Shown here: positions 1,992 to 16,523 of the stretch, one piece after another | Numbering within the stretch: the stretch's first letter is position 1 | Layout of the letters: every line of letters begins with the position of its first letter | DNA from: Pilimelia terevasa | GTDB taxonomy: Bacteria; Actinomycetota; Actinomycetes; Mycobacteriales; Micromonosporaceae | Assembly (NCBI RefSeq): GCF_014647915.1 | Contig: NZ_BMQC01000003.1 | Location: forward strand, 186,001 to 250,000 | DNA length: 64,000 nt | Reading direction: 5' to 3' | The notes under the pieces: model-generated | Seen by the model: the letters and a program-made list of their open reading frames with translations, nothing else | What the model was told of the DNA's origin: nothing | Database searches by the model: none | Position numbers and translations under genes: made by a program

Positions 1992-2848
1992 TGCCGGTCG
2001 GGCCGGACGGGTGGTTCGCGGCGGGGCGGCCGATCAAGGTGGACGGCGGGATCCGGGCGCGCGGGCAGCGCGGGTCGCTCGGCGCGCAGTGGTGGTCGCG
2101 GCGGTTCGTGGACCTGCTGGAGTCGCTGTGCGACGGGGGTCGGCTGGCCCGCGGGCGGGCGTACGCGCGGCAGGGCCAGGTGCGCGACTTCACCGTCGGC
2201 CCCGGACTGGTCGAGGGGCGGGTGCAGGGCTCCCGGCCGCAGCCCTACCACGTGGCGATCCGCATCGAGGCGTACGGCGACCGGGTGTGGGCGGCGCTGC
2301 GCGACGCGCTGGCCGCCCGCGCCGGGTACCGGGCCGCCCTGCTGGCCGGCGAGATGCCGCACGAGATCGTCGACGTCTTCGCCGCGGCCGGGGCGCCGCT
2401 GTTCCCCGACGCGCTGGAGATGGCCTGCTCCTGCCCCGACCCCGGGTGGCCGTGCAAGCACCTGTCGGCGGTCCTGTACCTGCTCGCCGAAGCCTTCGAC
2501 GACGACCCGTTCCTCGTCCTCGCCTGGCGCGGCCGGGACCGGGACACGCTGCTGGCCGCGCTCCGCGGCGAGCCGGCCCCCGGCGGGACCGACCCGGCCG
2601 GCCCCCACCCGGGCGACCCCGGCCCGGGGCCGGCCGGCGCCGCCGTGCCGGAGCCGCCGGTCGACGTGGACGCCTTCTATGGCGGCCCGGTGTCGGTCGC
2701 CCGGCTGCGCGAGCGGGTGACGGTCGCGTCGGCGGCGCCCCCGGAGCTGCTGCTGCGCGTCCTGGAGGCGCCGCCGGTCCGCGTCCGGCACATCCCGCTG
2801 GTGGACATCCTGCGCCCGGCGTACCGCGCGATCCCGCCGCCGGGCTGA
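1991..2848 (+). CDS. SWIM zinc-finger domain protein
   Basis: This 285-aa protein starts at the ATG that overlaps the helicase stop. A SWIM-type zinc-binding motif, CSCPDPGWPCKHL (CxC...CxH), lies about residues 140-152. SWIM domains bind zinc and are thought to contact DNA or partner proteins. In actinobacteria this family is regularly encoded directly after a SNF2 helicase, so it is probably the accessory subunit of that enzyme (inference from the one-base overlap). The stretch from residue 190 to 220 is a low-complexity Gly/Pro linker. The C-terminal 60 residues match no motif I know. No signal peptide or membrane segment is visible. Confidence 0.85.
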   Translation: MPVGPDGWFAAGRPIKVDGGIRARGQRGSLGAQWWSRRFVDLLESLCDGGRLARGRAYARQGQVRDFTVGPGLVEGRVQGSRPQPYHVAIRIEAYGDRVWAALRDALAARAGYRAALLAGEMPHEIVDVFAAAGAPLFPDALEMACSCPDPGWPCKHLSAVLYLLAEAFDDDPFLVLAWRGRDRDTLLAALRGEPAPGGTDPAGPHPGDPGPGPAGAAVPEPPVDVDAFYGGPVSVARLRERVTVASAAPPELLLRVLEAPPVRVRHIPLVDILRPAYRAIPPPG

Positions 2849-2854
2849 CTCGGG

Positions 2855-4066
2855 CTACCGCAGGGTCGGCGGGAGGGCGGGAAAGCCGCCGACCCCGGCG
2901 CGCGCGGTCGGGGCCGTCGGGCACAGGCCGCCGTACAGCACGTTCGCCTGCGCCCGGGCCAGCGCCTCGGTCAGCACCGGCGCGTTCTCGCCGACGGTGA
3001 GCTGCCGGTCGGTGCCCGCCACGTGGTACGAGTGGGTGGCGTAGCCGATCACGTAGCCGTTGTGGCCCCACACGTCCAGCACGGCCGTCCCGCACGGCAG
3101 CCGCAGGTGCATCAGCCCCAGCCCGTAGGCGACGCCGGGCGCGCCGGGCACCGGTACCGTCGTGCGCATCGCCGTCCACTGCGCCGGGGCCAGCAGCCGC
3201 CCGTCGAACAGCGCCCGGAAGAACCGGTTCAGGTCGGCGGCGGTGGAGACCAGGTCCCCGGCGGCGCCCGCGATCGTGACGTTGGACCGGCTCACGTCCC
3301 GCGGCACGCCCCGGGCGTCCGGCTCGTAGGCCCGCGCGTGCGGCCCGCGGATGACGGTCTCGGTCCCCGGGCGGTAGGTGTCGCGCAGTCCGAGCCGGTC
3401 GATGATCCGCCGCTGGATCTCCCGCTCCAGGGTGCGCCCGGTGACTTTCTCCACGATCAGGCCCAGGCCGATGTAGTTGGTGTTGGAGTACGACCAGCGC
3501 GCACCCGGCGCGTGCGTGACCGGCAGCGCCAGCCCCAGCCCGAACAGCGCGGCCGGGGCGAACGTGGTCCGGCGCGCCCAGTCCCCCACGGCGGCGGTGG
3601 CCAGCAGCGCCCCGTACTCGCCCAGCCCGCTGGTGTGCTGGAGCAGGTGCCGGACCGTGATCCGCTCCCGCCGGGAGTCCGGCAGGCCGTCGGGGCCGAC
3701 GGGCGGGAACACGTCCGCGTCCAGGTAGCGGCCGACCGGCGTGTCCAGCCCGATCCGGCCCTCGGCCACGAGCTGGAGCACGGCCACCGCGACGAAGGTC
3801 TTGGTGATGCTGCCGACCCGGTGGCGCAGGTCCGGGCGCATCGGGGTGCGGCGGGCCAGGTCGGCGACGCCCACGGCGAGCGCCGCCCGGTCCCCGCCGT
3901 CGGCCGCCTCGGCGAACAGGCCGGGCATCCCGGCGTCGCGCTCGGCGCCCATCAGCGCGCGCAGCCGCGCCCGGTCCACGCTCGCCGACGCCGGTGCCGG
4001 CCCGCCGAGCGCGGCGACCACCCCCAGGACCAGCCCCGCCACACCGAACCGCCTGCGCCACCGCAC
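2855..4066 (-). CDS. Secreted serine hydrolase of the S12 family (DD-carboxypeptidase / class C beta-lactamase fold)
   Basis: The 403-aa product has an Arg-rich N-terminus, a hydrophobic segment (residues 8-22) and an Ala-Ser-Ala cleavage region, so it should be exported. All three active-site motifs are present: SITK with Ser86 and Lys89, YSN at Tyr193, and HNG at His335 (an HxG-type third motif as in Streptomyces R61 DD-peptidase). It should cleave or transfer D-Ala-D-Ala or related esters and amides; the exact substrate cannot be read. Two adjacent GTG codons could start it; the second (4066) sits 7 nt after GGAGG and is preferred over 4069. A hairpin lies about 40 nt upstream. Confidence 0.85.
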   Translation of the reverse strand: MRWRRRFGVAGLVLGVVAALGGPAPASASVDRARLRALMGAERDAGMPGLFAEAADGGDRAALAVGVADLARRTPMRPDLRHRVGSITKTFVAVAVLQLVAEGRIGLDTPVGRYLDADVFPPVGPDGLPDSRRERITVRHLLQHTSGLGEYGALLATAAVGDWARRTTFAPAALFGLGLALPVTHAPGARWSYSNTNYIGLGLIVEKVTGRTLEREIQRRIIDRLGLRDTYRPGTETVIRGPHARAYEPDARGVPRDVSRSNVTIAGAAGDLVSTAADLNRFFRALFDGRLLAPAQWTAMRTTVPVPGAPGVAYGLGLMHLRLPCGTAVLDVWGHNGYVIGYATHSYHVAGTDRQLTVGENAPVLTEALARAQANVLYGGLCPTAPTARAGVGGFPALPPTLR

Positions 4067-4106
4067 CACGCCACCTCCGAAAGCTCGACTGACCGCAGCG
4101 TAGGGA

Positions 4107-4137
4107 GCGCGGGCCGCCGGCGCCGGACGGCCCGCGC
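4107..4137. terminator. Hairpin between selD and the S12 hydrolase gene
   Basis: A perfect 10-bp stem (GCGCGGGCCG with its complement) closes an 11-nt GC-rich loop. It lies downstream of the selD stop codon and just upstream of the next minus-strand start, so it probably ends selD transcription. There is no T-tract, as is usual for actinobacterial terminators. The other roughly 80 bases up to selD hold nothing recognisable. Confidence 0.5.
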
Positions 4138-4215
4138 CGTGGTCACCCGGACGACTGCCGGAAGGGCCGAAGGTCCTGGTGATCGCGTACGGCGTCCTGC
4201 GTGGTCGTCCGCTCG

Positions 4216-5202
4216 TCAGCGGAGGCGCAGGGTCGCCGCGTCCGCCGTGGCCGCCCGCAGGACGCCGACGACCGGCGCGCCGGGGACCTCCCCGGCGACG
4301 AGGAGCCCGCCGGAGGTCTGCGCGTCGGCGAGCAGCAGCACGGCGTCCTCGGCGGCGGTACCGGCGTCCAGGTGCGGCGCCACCCAGTCGAGGTTCCGCC
4401 GGGTCCCCCCGGAGACGTACCCGTCGCGGACCGCCTCGGCGGCCCCCGCCAGCAGCGGTACCGCGGCGACGTCCAGGTCGGCGCCGAGCCCGCTGGCCCG
4501 GCACAGCTTGTACAGGTGCCCCAGGAGGCCGAACCCGGTCACGTCGGTGCCGCACCGGATGCCGGCGGCGCGGGCGGCCCGGGCGGCGTCGCGGTTCAGC
4601 GTGGTCATCGCCTCGACCGCCGCCGGGAACACCTCGCCGGTCGCCTTGTGGCGCGAGTTCAGCACGCCGACGCCCAGCGGCTTGGTCAGCGACAGCGGGA
4701 GCCCGGCGCGGCCGGCGTCCAGCGTGATGAGCTGGGCCGGGTCGGCGGTGCCGGTGACGGCGAGGCCGTACTTGGGCTCCCGGTCGTCGATGCTGTGCCC
4801 GCCCGCCAGCAGGCACCCGGCCGCCGCCGCCACGGCCGCGCCCCCGCGCAGGACCTCGGCCGCCACGTCCATCGGCAGCAGCTCCCGCGGCCAGCTCAGC
4901 AGGTTCAGCGCCACCAGCGGCTCCCCGCCGACGGCGTACACGTCGGAGATCGCGTTGGTCGCGGCGATCCGCCCGAAGTCGTACGGGTCGTCGACCACCG
5001 GCGCGAAGAAGTCCGCGGTGGCGACCACGGCCGGACCGCCGCCGGGCGGCTGGACCACGGCCGCGTCGTCCCCGTGCGCCAGCCCCACCAGCAGCCGCTC
5101 GTCGGTCTGGCCGGCGAGCCCGGCGAGCATCGCCTCCAACTCGCCCGCCGGCAGCTTGCAACTGCACCCGCCACCGGCCGCGTACCCCGTCAGTCGCACC
5201 AT
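4216..5202 (-). CDS. selD: Selenide, water dikinase
   Basis: SelD makes selenophosphate, the selenium donor for selenocysteine, from selenide and ATP. The 328-aa length is typical. The N-terminal catalytic segment reads GGGCSCKL, with Cys13, Cys15 and Lys16, so this SelD carries Cys and not Sec at the active site. The glycine-rich ATP-site regions HGDDAAVVQ and GGHSIDD are clear. It is divergent from tRNA-Sec, selA and selB, which confirms the role. A -10-like TAGGCT lies 6 nt before the ATG and there is no Shine-Dalgarno, so the mRNA is probably leaderless. Confidence 0.95.
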   Translation of the reverse strand: MVRLTGYAAGGGCSCKLPAGELEAMLAGLAGQTDERLLVGLAHGDDAAVVQPPGGGPAVVATADFFAPVVDDPYDFGRIAATNAISDVYAVGGEPLVALNLLSWPRELLPMDVAAEVLRGGAAVAAAAGCLLAGGHSIDDREPKYGLAVTGTADPAQLITLDAGRAGLPLSLTKPLGVGVLNSRHKATGEVFPAAVEAMTTLNRDAARAARAAGIRCGTDVTGFGLLGHLYKLCRASGLGADLDVAAVPLLAGAAEAVRDGYVSGGTRRNLDWVAPHLDAGTAAEDAVLLLADAQTSGGLLVAGEVPGAPVVGVLRAATADAATLRLR

Positions 5203-5208
5203 CCGCCC

Positions 5209-5214
5209 AGCCTA
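5209..5214 (-). promoter_or_regulatory. -10-like box of selD, leaderless arrangement
   Basis: TAGGCT on the minus strand ends 6 nt before the selD ATG, so transcription would begin at or next to the start codon. No convincing -35 hexamer is visible at 16-19 nt spacing. The same geometry recurs before mqnA, the STAS gene, paaA, arsR and the Lrp-type gene. Confidence 0.45.
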
Positions 5215-5270
5215 GCCACGGACCGCCATCGACGCCGACCCATGGCGCCCCCGGCGGGCGGCGGCCGGGT

Positions 5271-5276
5271 TAGGGT
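5271..5276 (+). promoter_or_regulatory. -10-like box of tRNA-Sec
   Basis: TAGGGT ends 6 nt before the first base of the mature tRNA-Sec. That spacing would put the transcription start at or very near the 5' end of the tRNA. No clear -35 element is seen. Confidence 0.4.
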
Positions 5277-5282
5277 GTGCGC

Positions 5283-5378
5283 GGAGGTGTGTGGGTGCCT
5301 GGTGGCCCTCCTGGTCTTCAACACCAGTGGGCGGCGCGACGCGTCGTCGGCGGGTTCGATTCCCGTCCACCTCCGCCA
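5283..5378 (+). tRNA. selC: tRNA-Sec (anticodon TCA)
   Basis: A 96-nt tRNA including an encoded 3' CCA. The acceptor begins GGAGGTG and pairs with CACCTCC; the discriminator base is G. The anticodon arm is CTGGT-CTTCAAC-ACCAG with TCA at 5318-5320, which reads UGA. The variable arm is long, and the T arm has the loop TTCGATT closed by five pairs. Length, extra-long variable arm and TCA anticodon identify selenocysteine tRNA. It lies between selD and selA, the usual actinobacterial order. Confidence 0.96.
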
Positions 5379-5439
5379 TCCGGGGGTCCGCCCGCACGGG
5401 AGCCGCCGCACGGACGGTTCCGCCGCACGGGAGGCAAGA

Positions 5440-6714
5440 GTGGACAGGCGACGCCGGATCCCCCGCACCGACACGGTCCTGGCCGACCCGCGGCTGGTGG
5501 CCGCGGCGGTCCGCCTCGGCCGGCACCGGGTCAAGGACGCCGTGGCCGCGGCGGCGGCGCTCGCCCGCGCCGGCCGGCTCGACCCCGGTGACCTGGCCGA
5601 CGCCGCGCTGGCCGCGCTGCCGCCGGCCGCCACCGGCCTGCGAGCGGTGATCAACGCGACCGGCGTCCTGGTCCACACCAACCTCGGCCGGGCGCCGCTG
5701 TCCCCCGCCGCCCTCGACGCGGTGCGGCTGGCGGGCAGGACCGTCGACATCGAGCTGGACCTGGTTGACGGCCGCCGCGCCCCCCGCGCCCGCACGGCGG
5801 TCGACGCGCTCGCCGCGGCCGTCGGCGGCGCCGTCGGCGCCCACGTGGTGAACAACAACGCGGCGGCGCTGACGCTGGTCGCCGCCGCCCTGGCCGGCGG
5901 CCGGGAGATCCTGGTCAGCCGCGGCGAGCTGGTCGAGATCGGCGACGGCTTCCGGCTGCCGGCGCTGCTGGCCGCGGCGGGCGCGCGCCTGCGCGAGGTC
6001 GGTACCACCAACCGCACCCACCTCGCCGACTACGCCGAGGCGGTCGGCCCGGACACCGCGCTGATCCTCAAGGTCCACCCGTCCAACTTCCGGCTCACCG
6101 GGTTCGTCGCCGAGGCGCCGGTGGCGGCGCTGGCCACGCTCGGCCCGCCGGTGGTCCACGACATCGGGTCCGGCCTGCTGGTACCCGAGCCGCTGCTGCC
6201 CGACGAGCCCGACGCCCGCACGTCCCTGCGCGCGGGCGCCGCCCTGGTGACGGCCAGCGGCGACAAGCTGCTCGGCGGCCCGCAGTGTGGCCTGCTGCTC
6301 GGGGACCCGGAGCTGGTCGGCGCGCTGCGCCGGCACCCCCTGGCCCGCGCGCTGCGGATCGACAAGCTCACCGCCGCGGCCCTGGAGGCGACGCTCACCG
6401 GGCCGGAGCCGCCGGTCACCGCCGCCCTCCGCGCCGACCTGGCCGGGCTGCGCCGCCGGGCGGAGGCCGTCGCCCGCGCGGCCGGCGGCGCGCCGGCCGT
6501 CGTGGACAGCACCGCCACGGTCGGCGGGGGCGGGGCGCCCGGCGTCGACCTGCCCAGCGTGGCGCTCGCGCTGCCCGCCGCCGCGGCCGCCGGCCTGCGC
6601 ACCGGCACCCCGGCGGTACTCGGGCGGGTGGCCGGCGGGCGGCTGCTGCTGGACCTGCGCACCGTCGACCCCGCCGACGACGCGGCGCTGGCCGCGCGGC
6701 TGGCCGCCCGCTGA
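5440..6714 (+). CDS. selA: L-seryl-tRNA(Sec) selenium transferase
   Basis: SelA is the PLP enzyme that converts Ser-tRNA(Sec) to Sec-tRNA(Sec) with selenophosphate. The 424-aa protein has the SelA features: NATGVLVHTNLGRAPLS near residue 70, VNNNAAA near residue 140, and the PLP-binding lysine in SGDKLLGGPQ at about Lys276. The GTG start has GGGAGG 5 nt upstream; longer upstream extensions of the frame would run through tRNA-Sec and are rejected. The stop overlaps the selB start by one base (TGATG), so selA and selB are translationally coupled. Confidence 0.95.
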   Translation: MDRRRRIPRTDTVLADPRLVAAAVRLGRHRVKDAVAAAAALARAGRLDPGDLADAALAALPPAATGLRAVINATGVLVHTNLGRAPLSPAALDAVRLAGRTVDIELDLVDGRRAPRARTAVDALAAAVGGAVGAHVVNNNAAALTLVAAALAGGREILVSRGELVEIGDGFRLPALLAAAGARLREVGTTNRTHLADYAEAVGPDTALILKVHPSNFRLTGFVAEAPVAALATLGPPVVHDIGSGLLVPEPLLPDEPDARTSLRAGAALVTASGDKLLGGPQCGLLLGDPELVGALRRHPLARALRIDKLTAAALEATLTGPEPPVTAALRADLAGLRRRAEAVARAAGGAPAVVDSTATVGGGGAPGVDLPSVALALPAAAAAGLRTGTPAVLGRVAGGRLLLDLRTVDPADDAALAARLAAR

Positions 6715-8459
6715 TGTACCTCGTCGCCACCGCCGGCCACGTCGACCACGGCAAGTCGACGCTGGTCGAGGCGCTGACCGGTACCCACCCCGACCGGCTC
6801 GCCGAGGAGCGGCGCCGCGGGCTCACCATCGACCTCGGCTTCGCCTGGACCGCGCCGGCCGCCGGCCCGCCGACCGCCTTCGTGGACGTACCCGGACACC
6901 GGCGCTTCGTCGCCACGATGCTCGCGGGCGTCGGCCCGGTCCCGGCCGTCCTGTTCGTCGTCGCCGCCGACGAGGGGATGCGCGCCCAGTCGTACGAGCA
7001 CCTACGCGCCCTGGACGCGCTGCGCGTCCAGCACGGCCTGCTCGCCGTGACCCGCGCCGACCTCGCCGACCCGACGGCGGCGCTGGCCGAGGCGCGCCGG
7101 GCGCTCGCCGAAACGACCCTGGCCGGCATCGAGGCGGTACCGGTCAGCGCCCGGACCGGTACCGGCCTGCCCGAGCTGCGCGCGGCCCTGCACCGCGCGA
7201 CCGCGGCCCTGCCGCCCGCCGACCCCGGCGCCGACGTCCGGCTCTGGGTGGACCGCGGCTTCACGATCGACGGGGCCGGCACCGTCGTCACCGGCACCCT
7301 CCAGGCCGGCCGGCTGCGGGTGGGCGACGTGCTGCTGCGCGACGACGGCACCCCCGTGCGGGTCCGCGGCCTGCACGCCCTCGGCCGCGCGCGCGAGGAG
7401 GTCGCGGGTACCGCCCGGGTCGCCGTCAACCTGCGCGGCGTGGACCGCGCCGACGTGCACCGCGGCGCGGCCCTGCTCACCCCCGGCGCCTGGCTGCCCA
7501 CCGCCGAGGTCGACGTGCGACACGACCCGGCCGGGGCGCCGCCGCGGGAGGGGGTGCTGCACATCGGCGCCGCCGCGGTACCGGCGCGCTGGCGGCCCGT
7601 TGGCGACGGCCTCGCGCGGCTGCGGCTCTCCCGGCCCCTGCCGCTGCGCACCGGGGACCGGGCGCTGTGGCGGGACCCGGGCACCGGCGCGGTCGTCGGC
7701 GTGACGGTCCTGGACGTCCGGCCGCGCGCCCTGGACCGCCGGCACCGGGCCGCCGACCGGGCCGCGGCGCTCGGGGCCGCCGGCAGCCCGCCGGACGGCG
7801 CGGCGCTGCTCGCGCTGCACGGCCTCCTGCGCGCCCCGACCATGCGGGCGATGGGGGTGGCTCCGCCCGGTACGCCGGTCGCCGCCGACTGGCACGCCGA
7901 CGCCGGCACCTGGGCCGGCCTGCGCGACCGGCTCGCCGCCGCCGTCGCCGCCTACGCCGCCGCGCACCCGCTGCACCCGGCGATGCCGGTCGAGGCGGCG
8001 ACGACCGCCCTGGCCCTACCCGACCCGGCGCTGGCGGCCGCGCTCGTGGCGCCGCCGCTGGCGCTGCGCGAGGGGCGGATCACCGCGCCCGGCACCGCGC
8101 TGCCGCCGCGCGTGCGGGAGGCCGTGGCGACCCTGCTGGCGCCCCTGGCGGCGACGCCGTTCGCGGCGCCGGACAACGACCGCCTCGCCGCGCTGGGCCT
8201 GGGCAGCCGGGAACTCGCCGCCGCCGCCCGCGCCGGCCTGCTCCTGCGGCTGCCCGGCAACGTGGTGCTGGGGCCGGACGCCGCCGGCCGCGCGGCGGCG
8301 GCGCTGGCCGGGCTGCCCGCCGCGTTCACGGCCAGCGACGCCCGTCGCGCCTGGGGCACGACCCGCCGGGTGGCGATCCCGCTGCTGGAGCACCTGGACG
8401 CCGCGGGGGTCACCGTCCGGGTCGACACCGCCCGCCGCCGCCTCGCCGCCGGCGCCTAG
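6714..8459 (+). CDS. selB: Selenocysteine-specific elongation factor
   Basis: SelB delivers Sec-tRNA(Sec) to the ribosome at UGA codons followed by a SECIS hairpin. The 581-aa protein starts with a GTPase domain: G1 GHVDHGKST at residues 8-16, the switch motif GLTIDLGF, and G3 DVPGHRRF. EF-Tu-like beta-barrel domains follow, and then a C-terminal region (residues 370-581) fitting the winged-helix repeats that bind the SECIS. Its TAG stop overlaps the TAG stop of the convergent propeller gene within CTAG. The presence of selA, selB, selD and tRNA-Sec means the organism decodes Sec somewhere, though no clear selenoprotein lies in this window. Confidence 0.95.
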   Translation: MYLVATAGHVDHGKSTLVEALTGTHPDRLAEERRRGLTIDLGFAWTAPAAGPPTAFVDVPGHRRFVATMLAGVGPVPAVLFVVAADEGMRAQSYEHLRALDALRVQHGLLAVTRADLADPTAALAEARRALAETTLAGIEAVPVSARTGTGLPELRAALHRATAALPPADPGADVRLWVDRGFTIDGAGTVVTGTLQAGRLRVGDVLLRDDGTPVRVRGLHALGRAREEVAGTARVAVNLRGVDRADVHRGAALLTPGAWLPTAEVDVRHDPAGAPPREGVLHIGAAAVPARWRPVGDGLARLRLSRPLPLRTGDRALWRDPGTGAVVGVTVLDVRPRALDRRHRAADRAAALGAAGSPPDGAALLALHGLLRAPTMRAMGVAPPGTPVAADWHADAGTWAGLRDRLAAAVAAYAAAHPLHPAMPVEAATTALALPDPALAAALVAPPLALREGRITAPGTALPPRVREAVATLLAPLAATPFAAPDNDRLAALGLGSRELAAAARAGLLLRLPGNVVLGPDAAGRAAAALAGLPAAFTASDARRAWGTTRRVAIPLLEHLDAAGVTVRVDTARRRLAAGA

Positions 8460-9595
8460 GGCAGCGGGTCGAAGGCGAGCAGCTCGTCGTCCACCGCCGC
8501 GTACACGCCGGTGGCGTCGGCCGTCAGCCGCGTGACGTACCCGGGCCACGCCCCGCCGCGCGGCGCGCCGGTCGCCGCGTCCAGCGGGTACACGGTCGCG
8601 TTGTACCTGACGAGCAGGGTGCCGCCGCTGACCGCCAGCCGCATCCGCTCGAAGCCCCGGGCGACGTCCACCTGCCAGCGCGGCGCGCCGGTCGCCGCGT
8701 CGAGGCTGCGGACCGTGCCGACGGCGCCGCCGACCAGGACCGAGTCGCGGTAGGGCACCGCCTCCTGGAGCAGGTCCGCCGGCACGCTCCAGACCGTGCC
8801 CCCCGTGGCGGCGTCCAGGCGGCGCACCCCGGCCCCGACCCCGGCACCGTCCGCCTCGGTAGGCAGGACGAGGTGGCCGCCCGAGTCGTACCCCCACTCC
8901 CCCCCGCTCAGGACTCCCTCCAGCGTCCAGGAAGGGGCACAGGTCCGGACGTCCACCAGCGACGCGCTGGCGGGCCGGTCCTCGGTGCGGTCGCGGACGA
9001 GCAGTGCGCGGGCGGAGACCTGTCCGGCCAGCGGCCGGGTCGCCAACCACGCCCGACGGCTGCCGCCGTCCGAGGTGGACCACAGCGGGCTGCCGTCCTC
9101 GGCGTGCGCCGCCACCCAGTGGTAGCTGGAGTTGCTGGCCTGCACCGCCCGGACCAGGGTCGAGTCGAACCAGTAGGGCACACCGCTGCACGAGCGCACG
9201 GCGCCCAGGGGCCGGCCGCCGCCGTCGACGGTCTCCGCGTGCGCGTCGTACGCCGGTGACCCGGCCTTGCGGTACCGGGCGACGGCGGCGACGGCCCGCG
9301 GCCCGGCCGCGACGAGGTGGGCGGCCTCCTTCGCCTGTACGTGCGACGGCACCTCCCACCGCACCGCGCCGTCGGCGGCCGCGTGGGCGTGGAGCTTGCC
9401 CGGGGTGCTGCGGTAGACCGTGCCGGCGTGCACGTCGAAGGCGCCGGGGAGCGGAGCGCGCCACCGGACCGCCGGCAGCTCACCCGCGCGGCGACGGCGC
9501 GCCCGCGCGGGCGGGGCGCCGACGACGCTGAAGGCGCCCAGCGCGGCGCCCCCCAGCAACGCGCGCCGGGACAAGGTCGTGAAAGGACTCGCCAT
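8456..9595 (-). CDS. Tat-exported PQQ-like beta-propeller protein
   Basis: The 379-aa product begins with a twin-arginine signal (SRRALLGGAALGAF) and an Ala-rich cleavage region, so it should be folded before export. The mature part is built of repeated blades with DAATGAPRW-type signatures (DAATGGTVWSVP, DAATGAPRWQVDV), as in PQQ-binding-like quinoprotein propellers. No dehydrogenase active-site signature is evident, so it may be a binding or scaffold protein and not an enzyme. A paralogue with the same layout lies at 18790-20010. It converges on selB, the two stop codons sharing CTA. Confidence 0.8.
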   Translation of the reverse strand: MASPFTTLSRRALLGGAALGAFSVVGAPPARARRRRAGELPAVRWRAPLPGAFDVHAGTVYRSTPGKLHAHAAADGAVRWEVPSHVQAKEAAHLVAAGPRAVAAVARYRKAGSPAYDAHAETVDGGGRPLGAVRSCSGVPYWFDSTLVRAVQASNSSYHWVAAHAEDGSPLWSTSDGGSRRAWLATRPLAGQVSARALLVRDRTEDRPASASLVDVRTCAPSWTLEGVLSGGEWGYDSGGHLVLPTEADGAGVGAGVRRLDAATGGTVWSVPADLLQEAVPYRDSVLVGGAVGTVRSLDAATGAPRWQVDVARGFERMRLAVSGGTLLVRYNATVYPLDAATGAPRGGAWPGYVTRLTADATGVYAAVDDELLAFDPLP

Positions 9596-9871: not shown

Positions 9872-10429
9872 TCAGCACGGCGTCGCCGCGGCGGCGACCG
9901 CCAGGCACACCGCCGCGGCCGCCCAGCCCACGGCCGCCAGCAGGTGCCGGCGGCGCCGGTGGGCGGCGTCCCAGGCGGTCGCGTCGCCGCCGGCCAGCAC
10001 GGCCCACACCATCACGGTGCGGGCGGCGCCGAAGGCCGCCCCGAGCACCGGCGCGAGCCACCAGGGCGCCACGAGCAGCGCGCCGCCGAGCGCCACGTAC
10101 GGCAGGTGGCCGGGCAGGTACGTCCGCAGCCCGGTACCCATCTCGAAGCCGAACCGCAGCGCCCCCGCCCCACCGGCGTCCACGATGATCGAGCTGGGTA
10201 CCTGCCGGGCGTTCTGCGGCAGCCGCCAGCGCACCAGGCCGCCGTCGCAGGCCGCGCACACGAGGACCAGCAGCGCGTACAGCGCCCACCGCCACCCGGC
10301 CGGCAGCACCGCCTGCGCCACCGCGGCGGGCAGCAGGGCGAGCACCCCGGTCGCGGCCCCGCCGAGGACCAGCCCGCGGCGGAAGTACGCGGCACTCCGG
10401 TCACCCCGCCAGACCGACGAGGCCAGCAA
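9872..10429 (-). CDS. Polytopic membrane protein of unknown function (last gene of the thiol/Tat cluster)
   Basis: The frame gives about 185 residues with four or five hydrophobic segments, and a central charged stretch LPQNARQVPSS followed by RFGFEMGTGLRTYLPGH. I do not recognise the family with certainty. The start is unclear: a TTG at 10429 is the first usable codon, 7 codons after an in-frame TGA that ends the preceding 52-aa ORF in the same frame. It is the last of five tightly packed minus-strand genes that include a thioredoxin-fold protein and a Tat-exported Cys-rich protein, so a role in assembling or exporting that protein is plausible (inference). Confidence 0.6.
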   Translation of the reverse strand: MLASSVWRGDRSAAYFRRGLVLGGAATGVLALLPAAVAQAVLPAGWRWALYALLVLVCAACDGGLVRWRLPQNARQVPSSIIVDAGGAGALRFGFEMGTGLRTYLPGHLPYVALGGALLVAPWWLAPVLGAAFGAARTVMVWAVLAGGDATAWDAAHRRRRHLLAAVGWAAAAVCLAVAAAATPC

Positions 10430-10447
10430 CGCGGCTGAGTTGTGGCT

Positions 10448-10606
10448 TCACACCGACCCGGACACCGAGTGCCCGGCGACGACGCAGAGGCCCACGGCGG
10501 CCACGACCGCGGCAGCCGGCCCGCCCGCGCCGAGTGCGGCGGCCGCCGCCCCGCCGGCCGCGCCGGCCACGGCCAGCGTCACCGGCAGCGGGCGGTACCC
10601 CCTCAC
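10448..10606 (-). CDS. 52-aa hydrophobic peptide
   Basis: The GTG start overlaps the stop of the upstream Cys-rich gene in a four-base GTGA, a strong sign of translational coupling. The peptide has a short basic N-terminus, then two hydrophobic stretches (about residues 8-25 and 30-45), the second holding a single Cys (GLCVVAGHSV). It is too small to assign to a family. Its TGA stop is in frame with the next ORF, which opens directly after it; whether this TGA could be recoded is discussed as a finding. Confidence 0.5.
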   Translation of the reverse strand: MRGYRPLPVTLAVAGAAGGAAAAALGAGGPAAAVVAAVGLCVVAGHSVSGSV

Positions 10607-11199
10607 GCCAGCTCCTGCCGGCAGCTCGTCGTCGCGTAGTGCGCCCGGCCGCTGTGCGCGTCGCGCACCCGGACGTACCCGTCCCAGCAGTTGATCGTCC
10701 GGCCCTGGCTGCGCCAGAACCAGCCGGCGTACCCGCCGCACGTCGGCTCCCACCCGTGCGCGTACGTCGCCCCGGCGGTCCGCACGGTGTCGGTGCGGTG
10801 CTGGCCGTCCTCGGCGCAGTAGCTGGCCGAGATCAGCTCCCGGCCCCAGCACGGGGTGTCGCCGGGGACGTCGACGTCCATGCAGCGCTGGGGGTGCAGC
10901 GAGTCGCGGGCCGGCGGCGCGGCCGACGCCGGCAGCCGCTCCCCGAGCCAGGTCAGCCCGGACAGCGCCAGCGCCCCGACGCCGGCCAGGGCGGTCCGCA
11001 GGAACGTCCGCCGCGCGAACCCGCCCGCCCGCGGCCACCCCCCGGGCTCGGGCCGCCCGCCGGTCCCGGCCGGACCGCCGGAGTCGGGCGGGCCGGCGGA
11101 GTCGGGCGGGCCGGCGGAGGGGGGCCGCCCGGCGGCCGGCCCGGCGCCGAGCTGGCCCGGGGTGAAGGTCGGGATGTCGACGAAGAAGTCAGCGCTCAC
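10603..11199 (-). CDS. Tat-exported six-cysteine protein, unknown function
   Basis: A 198-aa protein in three parts: a Gly/Pro-rich cytoplasmic N-terminus (residues 11-60), a twin-arginine signal (ARRTFLRTALAGVGALALSG, Arg63-Arg64), and a mature domain of about 105 residues with six Cys (106, 117, 128, 154, 171, 193) and several Trp, two of them next to Cys (PCWG, NCWDGY). Six cysteines fit three disulfides. Size, Tat signal and a neighbouring thiol-oxidoreductase gene recall methylamine dehydrogenase light chain (MauA) beside MauD, but the cysteine spacing differs, so I make no family claim. The GTG at 11199 overlaps the upstream stop by 11 nt; a GTG at 11235 with GGAGGA upstream is the alternative. 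Confidence 0.65.
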   Translation of the reverse strand: MSADFFVDIPTFTPGQLGAGPAAGRPPSAGPPDSAGPPDSGGPAGTGGRPEPGGWPRAGGFARRTFLRTALAGVGALALSGLTWLGERLPASAAPPARDSLHPQRCMDVDVPGDTPCWGRELISASYCAEDGQHRTDTVRTAGATYAHGWEPTCGGYAGWFWRSQGRTINCWDGYVRVRDAHSGRAHYATTSCRQELA

Positions 11200-11692
11200 C
11201 GGGTACCGCCGTCCCGTCCGCGGCGAGCGCCGCACACAGCTCCTCCAGCCGCCGGACGGACCCGACGGGCTCGGTCGACCGGACCGCGCCGTGGTGGTCG
11301 ACCACGGCCAGCGCCGGCTGGTAGGCCAGCAGCAGCGGCGCCGACAACTGGGACTGGAGGACCAGCCGGTCCTCGGGGTCCAGCTCCCAGTGCGCGGACC
11401 CGTCGGCGCTGAGGACCGCGGTGTGCAGGCCGCGGGCGCGCAGCAGCCGGGCGGCGTTGCCCCACGCGGGGAACACGGTGCGGCAGGTGCCGCAGCTCTG
11501 CGCCACCACGAGGACCACGGTCCGCGCCCGCGGGGCGGCCAGTTCGTGGACCCGCGCCGGGCCGGCCAGCCCGGCGGGGCCGCCCGGCCCGCGCAGCTCC
11601 CGCACCTGGACCGTGAGCGCGGCGTAGCCGGCGGCCAGCAGCCCGATGGCCACCCAGGACAGCGCGAGCGCCGCGGTCAGGACGCCGGTCAC
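11189..11692 (-). CDS. Membrane-anchored thioredoxin-fold protein (MauD/TlpA-like)
   Basis: The 167-aa protein has one N-terminal transmembrane segment (residues 5-29) and an extracytoplasmic thioredoxin-like domain with the redox motif SCGTC (Cys67, Cys70). It should form, reduce or isomerise disulfides in exported proteins; the obvious candidate substrate is the six-Cys Tat protein encoded next. The GTG start overlaps the upstream stop as GTGA. The fold resembles MauD, which helps mature methylamine dehydrogenase light chain, but none of the other diagnostic mau genes is recognisable here. Confidence 0.75.
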   Translation of the reverse strand: MTGVLTAALALSWVAIGLLAAGYAALTVQVRELRGPGGPAGLAGPARVHELAAPRARTVVLVVAQSCGTCRTVFPAWGNAARLLRARGLHTAVLSADGSAHWELDPEDRLVLQSQLSAPLLLAYQPALAVVDHHGAVRSTEPVGSVRRLEELCAALAADGTAVPGER

Positions 11693-12450
11693 GACGGCGC
11701 CCCGGCCCAGTCCACGCGCAGGGATTCGAGCAGGTCGGCGACGCTGGCATCGGAGGCGTCGGCCTCGATCCCGCGCTCGTCGCGGACCATCGCCACGGCT
11801 GTCGGCCCGGCGTGCACGAAGTAGCCGCCGGTACCGGGCGCGAAGCCGGCGGTCGTGGTCCAGAGGCGCCCGTGCGCGACCGCCTTGCCGGGCGTCGCGG
11901 GCACGAGTCCCGCGGCCTCGGCGCGCGGGTAGACGGTGAGCGTGCCGACGCCGGCCACGTACTGCCGGCCGCACACCCCCCAGAGCCGGGTGTCGCCGCG
12001 CGTCCGCAGGACCAGCCCGCCCGGGGCGTCGGCGGGGTCCAGGTCGGCGAGCAGCGCGACGAGGTCGGCCAGCCGCGGCGGCGCGCCCGGGCCGGCGCAC
12101 ATGAGGTCGTGCCGGGCGCCGCGCAGGCCGGCGAGCCAGCGCGGTTCGGCGGCGGTACCGCCGGAGCGCAGCGCCAGCTCCCGCCCCCGGTAGGTGACCG
12201 CCTCGACCGGGGTGGGGAACTCGGCCGCCCGCAGGCCCAGGTAGCCGGCGGCGCCGACGGTGAGGCCGACCGACGCCCGCGGGGAGGTCGCCCGCAGCGA
12301 CCAGAACCAGTCCCCGGACAGCGCGCCGACCCCGCTGACGGCGACGACGGCGCCGTCCGGCGCCCGGCCGGTCTGCCGGCGCCAGGCGCGACCCGACCGG
12401 GTCGGCTGGACCGGCGGCGGCGCGTGCTCGGGCGCCACGGCGCCGGACAT
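11689..12450 (-). CDS. Unknown protein, first gene of the thiol/Tat cluster
   Basis: A 253-aa protein with a Pro-rich N-terminal 20 residues, no signal peptide and no membrane segment. The body has mixed beta-rich sequence with single Cys residues in LMCAGPGAP and WGVCGRQY. I recognise no domain. It is coupled by a GTGA overlap to the thioredoxin-fold gene and so belongs to the same pathway. The ATG at 12450 is chosen; a TTG at 12462 also follows the purine run GGGGGTGGAG. A 14-bp palindrome and an AT-rich patch lie 50-70 nt upstream and probably mark the operon promoter. Confidence 0.6.
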   Translation of the reverse strand: MSGAVAPEHAPPPVQPTRSGRAWRRQTGRAPDGAVVAVSGVGALSGDWFWSLRATSPRASVGLTVGAAGYLGLRAAEFPTPVEAVTYRGRELALRSGGTAAEPRWLAGLRGARHDLMCAGPGAPPRLADLVALLADLDPADAPGGLVLRTRGDTRLWGVCGRQYVAGVGTLTVYPRAEAAGLVPATPGKAVAHGRLWTTTAGFAPGTGGYFVHAGPTAVAMVRDERGIEADASDASVADLLESLRVDWAGAPS

Positions 12451-12637: not shown

Positions 12638-13750
12638 TCAGGCGTCGAAGTCGACCGTCAGCGCGTCGGTCAGCGGCGTCGACTGGCAGGTCAGGACGTA
12701 CCCGCGGGCCAGCTCGTCGGGCTCCAGCGCGTAGTTGTGCGCCATCTCCACCTTCCCGACGGTGACCTTGGCGCGGCAGGTGGAGCACACGCCGCCCTTG
12801 CAGGCGTACGGCAGCTCGGCGCGCACCCGCAGCGCCGCGTCCAGCACCCGCTCGCCGCGCGCCATCGGGAACGTCGACGCGCGCCCGTCCAGCAGCAGGG
12901 TCACCTCGGTGTCGCCGGCCGCCGCGTCCACGACCGGGGCCGGGGCGGCGGACGCGGAGGCGACGAAGAACAGTTCGCTGTGCACCCGCTCGGCCGGCAC
13001 GCCTCGCTCCCGCAGCAGCGCGTGCGCCGTCTCGACCATCTCGAACGGCCCGCACAGGAACCACTCGTCGATCCCGGCGGGCGGCACCAGCGTGGCGAAC
13101 AGCCGGGCCAGCCGGTCGCGGTCCAGCCGGCCCGAGAGCAGGGCGGCCTCCTGCGCCTCCCGGGAGAGCACGTGCAGCACGTGCAGGCGGGCCGGGTACC
13201 GGTCCTTGAGGTCGGCCAGCTCCTCGGCGAACATCACGCTGCGCGCGTACCGGTTGCCGTACAGCAGCGTCACCGTGCTGTCCGGCTCGGTCTCCAGGGC
13301 GGTGGCGGCCAGCGACAGGACCGGCGTGATCCCGGACCCGGCGACGATCCCGGCGTACCGGCGGGCCCGGCCCGGGTCGAACTCGGTGGTGAAGTGGCCC
13401 AGCGGCGGCAGCACGTCGATCGTCTGGCCGACCCGCAGGTGGGCGGCGGCCCAGGCCGAGAACGAGCCCCCGGGGATCGCCTTCACGCCGATCCGCACCG
13501 TCCCCCCGGCGGCGAGCGCGCGCGGCGTCGAGCAGATCGAGTACGACCGCCGCACCTCCTCGCCGGACTCGTCCACCCGGCGGACCGTCAGGTGCTGCCC
13601 CGCGGTGAACGCGAAGTCCCCGCGCAGCTCCGCCGGTACGGCCATGGTGATCGCCAGTGCCTCGTCGGTGAGCTGGTCGATCGCCGTCACCGGCAGCGCG
13701 TGGAAGACCGGCCGGCGGCGGGTCGGCTTGCGGACGGTCACGCTGGACAA
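12638..13750 (-). CDS. paaE: Phenylacetyl-CoA epoxidase, reductase subunit PaaE
   Basis: PaaE passes electrons from NADPH to the PaaA di-iron centre. The 370-aa protein has an FAD domain (RRSYSICSTP), an NAD(P) domain (AGSGITPVLSLA) and a C-terminal plant-type 2Fe-2S ferredoxin domain (CKGGVCSTCRAKV, last ligand in LTCQSTP). It is the final gene of the paaABCDE operon, 46 nt after paaD. The start is a TTG placed 6 nt after GAGGAGG; the in-frame GTG at 13741 would be 15 nt away and is less likely. Confidence 0.93.
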   Translation of the reverse strand: MSSVTVRKPTRRRPVFHALPVTAIDQLTDEALAITMAVPAELRGDFAFTAGQHLTVRRVDESGEEVRRSYSICSTPRALAAGGTVRIGVKAIPGGSFSAWAAAHLRVGQTIDVLPPLGHFTTEFDPGRARRYAGIVAGSGITPVLSLAATALETEPDSTVTLLYGNRYARSVMFAEELADLKDRYPARLHVLHVLSREAQEAALLSGRLDRDRLARLFATLVPPAGIDEWFLCGPFEMVETAHALLRERGVPAERVHSELFFVASASAAPAPVVDAAAGDTEVTLLLDGRASTFPMARGERVLDAALRVRAELPYACKGGVCSTCRAKVTVGKVEMAHNYALEPDELARGYVLTCQSTPLTDALTVDFDA

Positions 13751-13796
13751 CGCCAGCCTCCTCGGTCGCGGGTGGTCACAGGGGCTTCGCGGGTGC

Positions 13797-14288
13797 TCAC
13801 AGGGGCTTGAAGTGGTCGAACGGCTCGGCGCACGCCCGGCACCGGTGCAGCGCCTTGCAGGCGGTCGAGCCGAAGCGGCTCAGCACCTCGGTGTCCGGCG
13901 AGCCGCAGCGCGGGCAGCGGGCGGCCAGCGTCAGCGGCACCGGGCCGGCGCCCCGGGCGGCCGGCGGCGCGACGCCCGCGGCGGCGAGCTTGTCCCGCGC
14001 CGCGGCCGTCATGTCGTCGGTGGACCAGGCGGGGTCGAGCACCGTCTCGACCCGCGCCCGCGGGTAGCCGGCGGCGGCGAGCGCCCGCCGGATGTCGGCG
14101 CGGATCGCGTCCATCGCCGGGCAGCCGGTGTACGTCGGGGTGATCGTCACCGTGACGCCGTCGGCGTCCACGGCGACGTGGCGCAGGATGCCGAGGTCGG
14201 CGATGGTGACCACGCGCAGCTCGGGGTCGGCGACGGCGCCCGCCGCCGCCCACGCCCGCTGCGTCGCCGCCGCCGTCGCCGCGGTCAC
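13797..14288 (-). CDS. paaD: Phenylacetyl-CoA epoxidase maturation subunit PaaD
   Basis: The 163-aa protein has the MIP18/DUF59 fold (VADPELRVVTIADLGILR, TPTYTGCPAMD) and a C-terminal zinc-ribbon-like tail (CPRCGSPDTE and CRACAEPFDHFKPL), as in PaaD. PaaD proteins help assemble the iron-sulfur or di-iron centres of the epoxidase. The GTG start overlaps the paaC stop in GTGA, so translation is coupled. Confidence 0.93.
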   Translation of the reverse strand: MTAATAAATQRAWAAAGAVADPELRVVTIADLGILRHVAVDADGVTVTITPTYTGCPAMDAIRADIRRALAAAGYPRARVETVLDPAWSTDDMTAAARDKLAAAGVAPPAARGAGPVPLTLAARCPRCGSPDTEVLSRFGSTACKALHRCRACAEPFDHFKPL

Positions 14289-15061
14289 CAGCGGGCGCCC
14301 GGGTGCGCGCGGTGCAGGGACTGCATCTCGGCGAGCAGGTAGCTCAGGTGCTCGGTGTGCAGGCCGTCGCGCCCGCCGCCCGGCGCCCAGCCGTCGGCGG
14401 GGCGGGCGAGGGTCGCCTCGGCGAGGACGGCGGTGACCGTGCGCTCCCAGTCCGCCCGCAGCGTCGCCGGGTCGATCGGGCCGCCGGCCAGCGGCGCGAA
14501 CAGCTCGTGCGTGTACGGCCACAGCGCGTCCACCGCCGCCTGCGCGCGGCCGTGCGACTCGGCCGTGCCGTCGCCGAGCCGGCGCACCCAGGTGGCGGCG
14601 TGGTCGAGGTGGTACGCCACCTCCTTGCGGGTCTTGGCCGCGATGGCCGCCAGTCGCGGGTCGTCGGCGGCGGCGAGCCGGTCGTACAGCGGCACCTGGT
14701 ACGCGGCCAGCAACAGCAGCCGGGTGACGACGTGGGCGAAGTCGCCGTGCGGCAGCTCGGTCAGCAGCGCGTTGCGGAACTGGCGGTCGTCGCGCCGGTA
14801 CGCCAGCGCGTCCTCGTCCAGCGGCCGCGCGGCGACCGGCAGGGGGCCGCCGGTCCGCGCTGGCAGGGCCGTGTCGGGCACCTCGGCGGCGTAGGACAGC
14901 AGCAGCCGGGCGGCGCCGAGCTGGTCCAACGCGATGTTGGCCAGCGCGATGTCCTCCTCCATGGCCGGCGAGGACGCGTACCACTCGCCCAGCCGCTGGG
15001 CGGTGACCAGGGCGTCGTCGCCGAGGGCGAGCAGGTAGTCGAACAGGCCGGGGCGGCTCAC
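14285..15061 (-). CDS. paaC: Phenylacetyl-CoA epoxidase structural subunit PaaC
   Basis: PaaC is the catalytically inactive ferritin-like partner of PaaA in the ring-1,2-epoxidase. The 258-aa sequence is helix-rich with typical PaaC segments (LGDDALVTAQRLGEW, IALANIALDQLGAAR, KTRKEVAYHLDHAATWV, LHTEHLSYLLAEMQSLHR). It starts with GTG in a GTGA overlap with paaB and ends in a GTGA overlap with paaD. Confidence 0.95.
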   Translation of the reverse strand: MSRPGLFDYLLALGDDALVTAQRLGEWYASSPAMEEDIALANIALDQLGAARLLLSYAAEVPDTALPARTGGPLPVAARPLDEDALAYRRDDRQFRNALLTELPHGDFAHVVTRLLLLAAYQVPLYDRLAAADDPRLAAIAAKTRKEVAYHLDHAATWVRRLGDGTAESHGRAQAAVDALWPYTHELFAPLAGGPIDPATLRADWERTVTAVLAEATLARPADGWAPGGGRDGLHTEHLSYLLAEMQSLHRAHPGARW

Positions 15062-15357
15062 AGGTGGGCCACCCCCTCGGGCACGTCGTAGAAGGTGGGG
15101 TGCCGGTACACCTTGTCGGCCGCCGGGTCGAAGAAGGCGTCCTTCTCGTCCGGGCTGGAGGCGGTGAGCGCCGCGGCGGGCACGACCCAGATGGAGACCC
15201 CCTCCTGCCGGCGGGTGTACAGGTCGCGGGCGTGCCGCAGGGCCAGCTCCGCGTCGGGGGCGTGCAGGCTGCCGACGTGCCCGTGCGACAGCCCGCGGCG
15301 GGGCCGCACGAACACCTCCCACAGCGGCTCGGCCGGGGTGGGGGTCTGGCCGGTCAC
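15058..15357 (-). CDS. paaB: Phenylacetyl-CoA epoxidase subunit PaaB
   Basis: PaaB is the small linker subunit that bridges PaaAC heterodimers. The 99-aa length and the segments [39 protein letters not shown] and [13 protein letters not shown] match the family. It is coupled to paaA and paaC through GTGA overlaps at both ends. Confidence 0.95.
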
Positions 15358-16487
15358 GCCGGTACCGCCTCTCTGTCGCTGGCCCGCTTCGCCGCGTAGG
15401 CCGCGGCCGCCTCCCGGACCCACGCGCCGTCGGCGTGCGCCTGCCGCCGGAACGCCATCCGCTGCCGGTTGCACGGTCCGTCGCCCGAGATGACCCGCAT
15501 CAGCTCGTCGTAGTCGGGCTGGGTGTAGTCGTACGCCCGGCGCTGCGCGTTCCACCGCAGGTCGGGGTCGGGCAGGGTCAGGTTCAGCGACCGCGCCTGG
15601 TCGACGCACATGTCGACGAAGCGCTGGCGCAGTTCGTCGTTGCTGAACCGCTTGATCTTCCAGGCCATGGACTGGGCCGAGTGGGTGGAGTCGGCGTCCG
15701 GCGGCCCGAACATCGCCAGCGACGGGTACCACCAGCGGTCCACCGCGTCCTGGGCCATCGCCCGCTGCCCCGGCGTGCCGTGGCCGAGGACGTGCAGGAC
15801 CTCGTACCCCTGCCGCTGGTGGAACGACTCCTCCTTGCACACCCGGATCATCGCCCGGGCGTACGGGCCGTACGAGCAGCGGCACAGCGGCACCTGGTTG
15901 ACGATGGCGGCGCCGTCCACCAGCCAGCCGACCGCGCCGACGTCGGCCCAGGTCAGGGTCGGGTAGTTGAAGATCGAGCTGTACTTCTGCCGGCCGCTGA
16001 CCAGCATCTCCACCAGCTCCTCGCGGGTGATGCCCAGCGTCTCGGCGGCGGCGTACAGGTACAGCCCGTGGCCGGCCTCGTCCTGGACCTTGGCCAGCAG
16101 GATCGCCTTGCGCTGGAGCGAGGGCGCCCGGGAGATCCAGTTGCCCTCCGGCTGCATCCCGATGATCTCGGAGTGCGCGTGCTGGGCGATCTGCCGGATC
16201 AGGGTCCGCCGGTACTTCTCCGGCATCCAGTCACGGGGTTCGATCTTCTGGTCGGCGGCGATGACGGCGTCGAAGTACGCCTGGAGCGCGGCCTCGTCGG
16301 CGTCGGCGGCGGCCCGCCCGACGGTACGGCCGGCGGCCTCGGCCAGCGCCGCCTCGGCGGCCGCCACCTCGCCCAGCAGGCCCTCGCCCAGCGCCGCGGC
16401 GGCGGCGTCGGCGTGCGCGGTGTCCCGATCAGGGTCTTTGACCTGATCAACGCCCTCGTCGGGCGGCCCGAAATCATTCCCGTACAC
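15354..16487 (-). CDS. paaA: Phenylacetyl-CoA epoxidase catalytic subunit PaaA
   Basis: PaaA holds the di-iron site that epoxidises the ring of phenylacetyl-CoA with O2. The 377-aa protein shows the ferritin-like helices with carboxylate/His ligands, for example [17 protein letters not shown] and [14 protein letters not shown], and the characteristic [21 protein letters not shown]. The GTG at 16487 is chosen because a good promoter puts transcription onset right there. paaA heads the paaABCDE operon. No PaaR/TetR regulator or paaG/Z/K genes are adjacent, so the rest of phenylacetate catabolism must lie elsewhere. Confidence 0.94.
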
Positions 16488-16494
16488 CCCCCCA

Positions 16495-16523
16495 GTGTTA
16501 CAGCTACGGGCCACGGGCGCCAA
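16495..16523 (-). promoter_or_regulatory. paaA promoter (leaderless)
   Basis: On the minus strand TTGGCG (16518-16523) and TAACAC (16495-16500) are separated by 17 bp, matching an actinobacterial housekeeping promoter. The -10 box ends 7 nt before the paaA GTG, so the transcript would start at the start codon; the G-run between them is not needed as a ribosome-binding site. Confidence 0.55.

Follow-up and report, generated by a model that had tools for sequence, protein, structure and literature searches.

The gene cluster and the reading frame of DE

We analyzed a thiol-type gene cluster on the minus strand of a 64,000-nt stretch of the Pilimelia terevasa contig NZ_BMQC01000003.1 (the window; all window coordinates are positions within this stretch). 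A sequence-only reading had described five open reading frames (ORFs) here, and all five were confirmed: A (11689-12450), which encodes a 253-aa protein of no known family with relatives of about 230-270 aa; B (11189-11692), which encodes a membrane-anchored, thioredoxin-like protein with a CGTC motif; C (10603-11199), which encodes an exported protein of the twin-arginine translocation (Tat) type with six Cys, a W-x-W and a C-x-D; D (10448-10606, 52 codons); and E (9872-10429). The overlaps also proved to be as described, 4 nt (GTGA) at both A/B and C/D and 11 nt at B/C. The treatment of D and E as two genes was wrong, as they lie in the same frame, one codon apart, and this single frame is interrupted only by the TGA at 10448-10450. 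What had been missed is that D and E together form one selenoprotein gene and that the whole selenocysteine (Sec) machinery lies next door. The gene, DE (9872-10606, minus strand), has a presumed GTG start at 10606 and encodes 244 residues, Sec being residue 53 in the context SGSV-U-SHNSA.

Homologs of E were first detected in Micromonosporaceae genomes and then, via C, in Nonomuraea. In each of the first 17 loci read, the E frame continued upstream, past one TGA only, into a peptide that resembles D and has SGS[VT] at its end. When the E alignment was run against a collection of species genomes, 178 relatives were confirmed; the counts given here use the best 80 of these, which with the window, a second genomic copy (L036) and a Nonomuraea locus (L021) make up 83 loci, among which 80 downstream stretches are distinct. 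The TGA stood at the same place in all 83 loci (80 of 80 from the genome scan), so the in-frame UGA looked for in a bacterial selenoprotein is conserved throughout. The strict motif matched 77 of the 80 scan loci, and the remaining three (L093, L114, L118), located separately, also carry TGA. Cys, any other sense codon, TAA or TAG occurred at the site in none of the 83 loci. The site lies within the motif SGSx-U-[ST]xNS, of which SGS, one residue ahead of the site, and NS, one residue beyond, were present in 83/83; the residue preceding Sec was V in 52 loci, T in 22, A in six, and S, I and P once each. The flanks of the site were invariant across 66 aligned DE proteins.

Following the window TGA are six codons without a start and then the TTG at 10429, which the ORF finder took as the start of E. 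This TTG start is an ORF-calling artifact, because ATG, GTG and TTG are absent from the first 14 codons after the TGA in 66 of the 83 loci while the conserved protein sequence begins directly after the TGA. A constant TGA serving as a mere stop is also unlikely, because TGA makes up only 79.4% of the stops of 1,020 neighboring genes; the chance of never meeting TAA or TAG would be about 2e-7 for 66 non-redundant sequences, if these are independent. An AlphaFold2 model of the read-through protein (66 sequences, Sec entered as Cys) reached a mean predicted local distance difference test score (pLDDT) of 94.1 and a predicted template modeling score of 0.91, with no break at the Sec site. On this computational evidence, together with the hairpin and the machinery described below, it is nearly certain that DE is a selenoprotein.

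A hairpin of the bacterial SECIS type

Two hairpins are predicted directly after the TGA in most DE sequences. The second is of the bacterial selenocysteine insertion sequence (SECIS) type and lies in the window at 10404-10422 on the minus strand, with the core CTCGTC-GGTCT-GGCGGG and its apical loop 32 nt past the Sec codon. Its six core pairs were paired in 99.6% of cells (77 distinct sequences), and in 21 of the 77 both partners of one pair had changed, UG or UA becoming GC. The first hairpin was less regular, with 75.5% of cells paired, and is not claimed for the window. These pair counts exclude three of the 83 sequences that have a codon deletion (L057, L067, L101).

We applied the criteria for bacterial SECIS elements given in a 2026 review (PMC13188914), namely a loop of 3-9 nt, a G early in the loop, a spacing of 16-37 nt and a minimum free energy of at most -7.5, and added a stem of at least 6 bp. 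A hairpin within these limits was found in 75 of the 83 DE loci, the window included. In controls taken from the same loci the rate was 9-12% (96 of 807 TGA codons acting as ordinary stops, 70 of 789 windows of coding sequence). The window hairpin has a predicted energy of -11.1 kcal/mol with its flanking pairs and of -5.8 for the six-pair core alone.

Selenocysteine machinery in the window and in carrier genomes

A compact and complete Sec locus occupies 4288-8459, with selD on the minus strand followed by tRNA-Sec, selA and selB on the plus strand. All four genes scored above curated cut-offs and lie within about 6 kb of DE, with about 1.4 kb separating the ends of selB and DE. The profile match to selD extends over 4288-5196 (TIGR00476, 365.9 or 365.6 bits in two scans, cut-off 125). 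The tRNA-Sec gene (selC) lies at 5283-5378 according to ARAGORN and matches Rfam RF01852 at 5283-5374 with 70.2 bits; selA (5440-6714, start approximate) matches TIGR00474 with 389.4 bits (cut-off 267.9), and selB (6714-8459) matches TIGR00475 with 248.9 bits (cut-off 242.25). With selB and tRNA-Sec, the window carries the machinery for Sec decoding; the other carriers were judged on tRNA-Sec alone.

Genes clustering as selA, selB or selD were found in the fetched flanks of 25 of the 83 loci, where these names are sequence-based labels, profile-tested only in the window. For 50 of the 80 loci the carrier genome was tested for tRNA-Sec, and all 50 gave matches scoring no less than 62.7 bits. 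Among 121 Micromonosporaceae genomes sampled, tRNA-Sec was present in 11 of 12 DE carriers vs 56 of 109 others (Fisher P 0.006), at a threshold of E<=1e-11 that was set after a gap between 64.2 and 55.6 bits was seen; the 12 carriers are 14 minus two with weak E matches (G132, E 7.6e-4; G134, E 9.2e-4).

A formate dehydrogenase match with an in-frame TGA was obtained in six of the 12 carriers (G019, G041, G050, G057, G090, G125) and was not found in the other six, the genome of the window included. This search covered one family, with stops counted inside matched stretches, and is no survey of all selenoproteins. As a separate observation, Table 1 of PMC5029168 lists several actinobacteria with orphan SelD.

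A sister family and the relationship to DsbD/CcdA

We compared the DE alignment with 396 genomes of the phylum and obtained matches in 38, its own genome included. Outside the DE branch, most of the fetched loci fall into a sister family whose members have about 200-230 residues and carry WSP[U/C]GxSM or a close variant of this motif. At the motif site, the codon was TGA in 20 of 25 sister genes and TGC in five of 25. The motif search admits only U or C and gives 25 of 29 sister or related loci; of the four left out, L154 and L165 show U, L148 is masked and L137 is an SGSxU-type fragment. A SECIS hairpin was found in 19 of the 20 Sec genes and in none of the five Cys genes. These loci (L138-L183) hold a second selenoprotein family, with Cys forms in existence, within MauE/MauD-like gene sets.

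The alignment of DE with the sister family by hhalign had a probability of 99.3% (E 3e-20, 167 columns). DE is therefore related to a family that has both Sec and Cys forms and that itself partly matches the transmembrane models of DsbD/CcdA: at E<=0.1, DsbD_2 was matched by 11 of 22 sister proteins (best 2.1e-6) and DsbD_TM by six of 22 (best 3.8e-6). Sister protein L182 exceeded the PF13386 cut-off with 28.2 vs 24.9 bits and is the only member seen with its score. The equivalence of the DE and sister Sec sites rests on position, the two agreeing within a five-residue gap, because the aligned block begins after Sec. Cys at the Sec position occurs in none of the 83 close homologs and in five of the 25 sister loci, whose aligned block with DE starts past the site.

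DE itself gave no match to the DsbD/CcdA Pfam models PF13386 and PF02683 and so does not reach a curated cut-off for membership. A pair of redox residues within the membrane domain was found in neither family; Sec is the sole invariant redox residue in DE and in the sister family alike. A search of PDB sequences with DE gave nothing significant (best E 0.53), and the best fold match (VIA Z 5.5) was common to a transporter and NqrE. We would claim no fold for DE, because the best fold matches are weak and transporters are mixed in. CcdA carries an SPC motif, and the CcdA of this genome (window 57049-57681) shows its SPC in the alignment with the sister family, at a probability of only 2%.

The likeness to DsbD/CcdA lies in a polytopic membrane protein whose conserved chalcogen residue sits next to a short helix, a thioredoxin-like partner, and the matches of 11 and six of 22 sister members to the models at E<=0.1. 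Unlike DsbD/CcdA, DE has Sec in place of Cys, a single conserved redox residue and an extra N-terminal two-helix part (D), and is itself without a match to the models. DE is best described as distantly related and CcdA-like, its Sec lying at a site of the SPC type, and we have not filed it as a DsbD/CcdA member.

Comparison with known selenoproteins

DE resembles known prokaryotic selenoprotein families in its UGA, its SECIS hairpin and its genome-linked Sec machinery; it differs in that neither its motif nor that of the sister family is found in the 119-family table. In the portion of PMC13188914 available to us, neither SGSxU[ST]xNS nor WSPUGxSM is among the names and motifs of this table, in which some entries have no motif; the same table does include membrane-type or DsbD-like entries (YeeE/YedE and the rhodanese/DsbD fusion-like TsoB). 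No NCBIfam 20.0 or Pfam model exists for DE, and the three sister proteins scanned had no NCBIfam 20.0 match. We found no earlier description of DE by title or abstract opening in the open-licence literature on selenoproteins, actinobacteria and DsbD/CcdA, and DE is not mentioned in the available portions of PMC12013277, PMC5029168 and PMC1242214.

Selenoproteins are easily lost in annotation when UGA is read as a stop, and finders rely on Cys homologs. The deep-Sep paper (PMC12013277) notes that selenoproteins without Cys homologs may be filtered out. DE could have been overlooked so far because no close Cys form exists among the 83 loci.

The partners A, B, C and MauE

The gene order around DE is conserved. 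By gene clustering, 75 of the 83 loci have A, 74 have B and 68 have C; in at least 59 the three genes stand upstream of DE in the order A, B, C. Among the misses are contigs that are truncated, failures of gene calling, and C proteins whose divergence keeps them out of the clusters, and one locus (L067) is rearranged. The C of the window and a few others escape clustering and are recognizable by eye. This supports the suggestion that a small exported Cys/Trp-rich protein is surrounded by a thiol-type gene set that is distinct and conserved.

Protein A matched no known family in Pfam and the other collections searched and had only a chance-level PHROG match. Matches of B to the Redoxin and Thioredoxin Pfam models were weak and under cut-offs; each of its 77 clustered relatives has one CxxC. 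The likeness of B to MauD is weak. The window protein had no match to TIGR02661 (cut-off 188.6), and two relatives fell far below this cut-off: the B of L074 scored 23.0 bits (4.4e-5, residues 6-34 only) and that of the sister locus L182 scored 37.9 bits (1.2e-9). The window copy has no MauE gene. Among its relatives, a MauE gene clustered in the fetched flanks of 34 of the 83 loci, lying between A and B in 23 of these, after DE in six, before A in three and otherwise placed in two, and all 34 MauE proteins contain CGC. Two members scanned against PF07291 (cut-off 27) scored 67.4 bits (L074) and 44.2 bits (L021, 2018-2545).

Alignment of 73 C proteins, five of them added by a filter of at least five Cys and at least three Trp, showed five Cys, the W-x-W and the C-x-D to be invariant, with the sixth Cys in 66. 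A subgroup of 22 loci has further Cys, and peptidoglycan-binding domains where scanned (L074). The Tat signal of C is assigned from its sequence, which is of the RR-x-F-L type; the NCBIfam TAT model gave only 10.9 bits against a cut-off of 16.7. PDB sequences gave nothing credible for C (best E 0.31). In a fold search no match reached E<=0.001 and the best had a VIA Z of 4.2; absence of a fold from such lists excludes no fold.

In several sister clusters we saw MauE, a MauD-like protein, an E-like protein, usually a protein of about 150-170 aa, and a Cys-rich, mostly Tat-type protein together (for example L166, L168-L171, L177 and L179-L183). The sister Cys-rich proteins have LGFP repeats in the two scanned and an invariant WW pair in the nine aligned; against the PDB, the best E was 0.19 for the protein and 0.65 for its profile, neither credible. 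In both branches, therefore, the membrane protein tends to occur with partners of the thioredoxin and MauE types and with an exported Cys/Trp-rich protein.

Proposed function and alternatives

We consider it rather probable that DE is a new membrane selenoprotein in an operon that handles the thiols of the small exported protein C, by the relay proposed here. The function of DE and the direction of electron flow are inferred. By the positive-inside rule, the charge distribution of DE puts its N terminus inside, together with the loop that follows Sec and the LPQN loop. In B, K+R is higher after the single transmembrane (TM) segment than before it in 76 of 77 proteins, which by the same rule places the CxxC domain inside. 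Because Tat carries folded proteins, the disulfides of C would have to be in place by the time it is exported. A cytoplasm-facing relay is preferred on account of this and of the charge bias, which puts the CxxC domain of B inside.

In this relay, running C - B - DE/MauE on the cytoplasmic face, the selenol of DE, just past TM2 on the cytoplasmic side, would trade electrons with the CxxC motif in B and, in loci that have MauE, with the CGC motif of that protein as well. B would make or correct the three disulfides that C contains, either ahead of Tat export or in the course of it, with A as a possible cytosolic escort of C, and the relay would thus form or proofread disulfides in C. As to net flow, our preference is for the oxidative direction (disulfide formation) over the reductive one (DsbD-like reduction or isomerization).

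Several observations weigh against this interpretation. Eight of the 83 loci (L048, L053, L056, L062, L074, L080, L101, L103) have no hairpin within the SECIS limits, and tRNA-Sec is not seen in one carrier, G041, whose assembly is 80% complete and in 650 contigs; that genome does have a TGA-containing match to formate dehydrogenase. The aligned block of DE and the sister family begins 19 and 24 residues past Sec. In Foldseek against the PDB, DE had no match at E<=0.001, and CcdA (5vkv) came at rank 13 with E 0.91 and TMq 0.32. Comparison with the CcdA of the same genome gave a probability of 0.2% for DE and 2% for the sister family. DE has no second conserved redox residue and therefore no CcdA-like intramolecular pair. 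The TM6/TM7 loop of DE, expected inside, is net negative (K+R 1.77, D+E 3.08), and sidedness as a whole is derived from the positive-inside rule only. In at least one sister locus, the Cys form L167, neighbors of the MauE, MauD-like or Cys-rich kind are not seen.

The main rival to the cytoplasm-facing relay is the outward, CcdA-like direction. Here DE would be a selenoprotein that brings in reducing power for the outer face in the manner of DsbD/CcdA, with electrons from cytoplasmic thiols passing through Sec to an outward-facing B, which would reduce or isomerize an exported partner, be it C or some other protein. In favor of this, half of the sister family matches DsbD_2 or DsbD_TM at E<=0.1, and B has weak, below-cut-off Redoxin and Thioredoxin matches, a thioredoxin-type protein being the type of partner that CcdA has. 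We regard it as unlikely, though worth serious attention, given that the charge bias places the B domain inside in 76 of 77 proteins and that DE and the sister family each have one invariant redox residue only.

We also considered that C might be a disulfide-rich precursor of the bacteriocin type or of a ribosomally synthesized and post-translationally modified peptide (RiPP), with B, MauE and DE as its modification enzymes. In the part of the decRiPPter paper available to us (PMC7794033), families with mauE and mauD beside Cys-rich small proteins in Streptomyces are read as candidate RiPPs; three have mauE, one of the three has mauD in addition, and each predicted precursor has at least eight Cys. 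The resemblance to our clusters is in the MauE/MauD genes beside Cys-rich small proteins, and the difference is that those families are read as RiPPs, with selenoprotein unmentioned in that part of the paper. The decRiPPter families probably include some of the same loci. A RiPP precursor is nevertheless improbable for C, whose mature domain of about 105 residues is modeled by AlphaFold2 as folded (pLDDT 82.4) and which in one group (L074) is fused to peptidoglycan-binding domains, unlike a leader-core precursor.

The sequence-only reading had drawn its analogy from the mau genes of methylamine dehydrogenase, in which case C would be a MauA-like light chain bearing a tryptophan-derived quinone and matured by B and MauE. 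The clusters do share with the mau genes a MauE near 34 of 83, a membrane-anchored CxxC protein and a small exported Cys/Trp-rich protein, and the W-x-W is invariant in 73 of 73 aligned C proteins, as is the WW pair in the nine aligned sister Cys-rich proteins. Unlike the mau genes, the DE cluster adds a selenoprotein and A, C is unrelated to MauA in the searches made, and no conserved heavy-chain-like gene was found near DE clusters (MauG was not searched for). Neither C nor the sister Cys-rich proteins matched MauA in Pfam, NCBIfam or the PDB; the C of the window had no match to the MauA light-chain model, and this family is listed at E<=1 for none of 45 C domains. The only heavy-chain candidate seen, a propeller protein at 8456-9595, matches no called gene near other clusters. 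The chances of a MauA-like C are accordingly slim, and Trp modification of C is unsupported, its sole pointer being the invariant W-x-W pair. The weakest alternative, that D and E are separate, translationally coupled genes with the TGA as an ordinary stop, can draw on TGA being the commonest stop here (79.4%) and on a start codon within 14 codons in 17 of the 83 loci, and is scarcely credible in view of TGA in 83/83, the conserved sequence directly after it with no start codon in 66/83, the SECIS hairpin, the unbroken frame with Cys at the corresponding site in five of 25 sister loci and tRNA-Sec in 50 of 50 carrier genomes.

More tentatively, the cytoplasm-facing relay may be part of something wider. 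It is conceivable, although we would not put it at even chances, that a two-branch superfamily (SGSxU and WSPUG) of DsbD/CcdA-like membrane selenoproteins is a main client of the Sec machinery in many Actinomycetota, that it drives a previously unrecognized, cytoplasm-facing and selenium-dependent installation of disulfides (and perhaps of a Trp-derived cofactor) in Cys/Trp-rich proteins before their Tat export to the cell wall, and that the genome of the window, in which the search for formate dehydrogenase gave no match with an in-frame TGA, may keep its Sec machinery for this alone. If true, two selenoprotein families would be added to a phylum rich in antibiotic producers, and the Sec machinery would have a use in genomes without a detected Sec formate dehydrogenase. 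A selenium-dependent thiol relay would then be linked to Tat export, and the acquisition of disulfides by Cys-rich Tat substrates would become testable.

Neighboring genes and further loci

Between selB and DE lies the gene for a Tat-type PQQ_2 beta-propeller protein (8456-9595, minus strand). We rejected it as a member of the system, since in a phmmer search over the called genes of the 83 loci it found only itself at E<=1e-3. The genome of the window carries a second A-B-C-DE cluster (L036, contig C3, 282500-298500) about 93 kb from the first and with its own SGST-U motif; a propeller-like ORF with a Tat signal lies upstream of the A of this second copy.

The Nonomuraea gerenzanensis locus L021 holds, beside its DE cluster, a divergent MauE-like protein, a MauD-like protein, a 12-Cys RRKFLG protein and an E-like protein without Sec (3600-6341). 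The last of these, a membrane protein encoded at 3600-4169, is a possible relative of E (hhalign 68%, E 4.7e-5); a relationship of C to the 12-Cys protein was rejected (hhalign 0.2%). Another B-C-DE-MauE set is found at 294-3085 of the same locus.

Directly after DE in L054 (9588-9896) and in 13 further loci, from Pseudonocardia and some others, lies a gene for a protein of about 105 aa with the motif DVxCPxCSRIARELP, a possible extra thiol partner. The flanks of L028 and L021 encode proteins that are rhodanese-like by sequence only and are possibly tied to selenium or sulfur supply. Upstream of the cluster in the window, the minus-strand genes at 12638-16523 have the appearance, in their sequences, of the phenylacetate-degradation type (paa).

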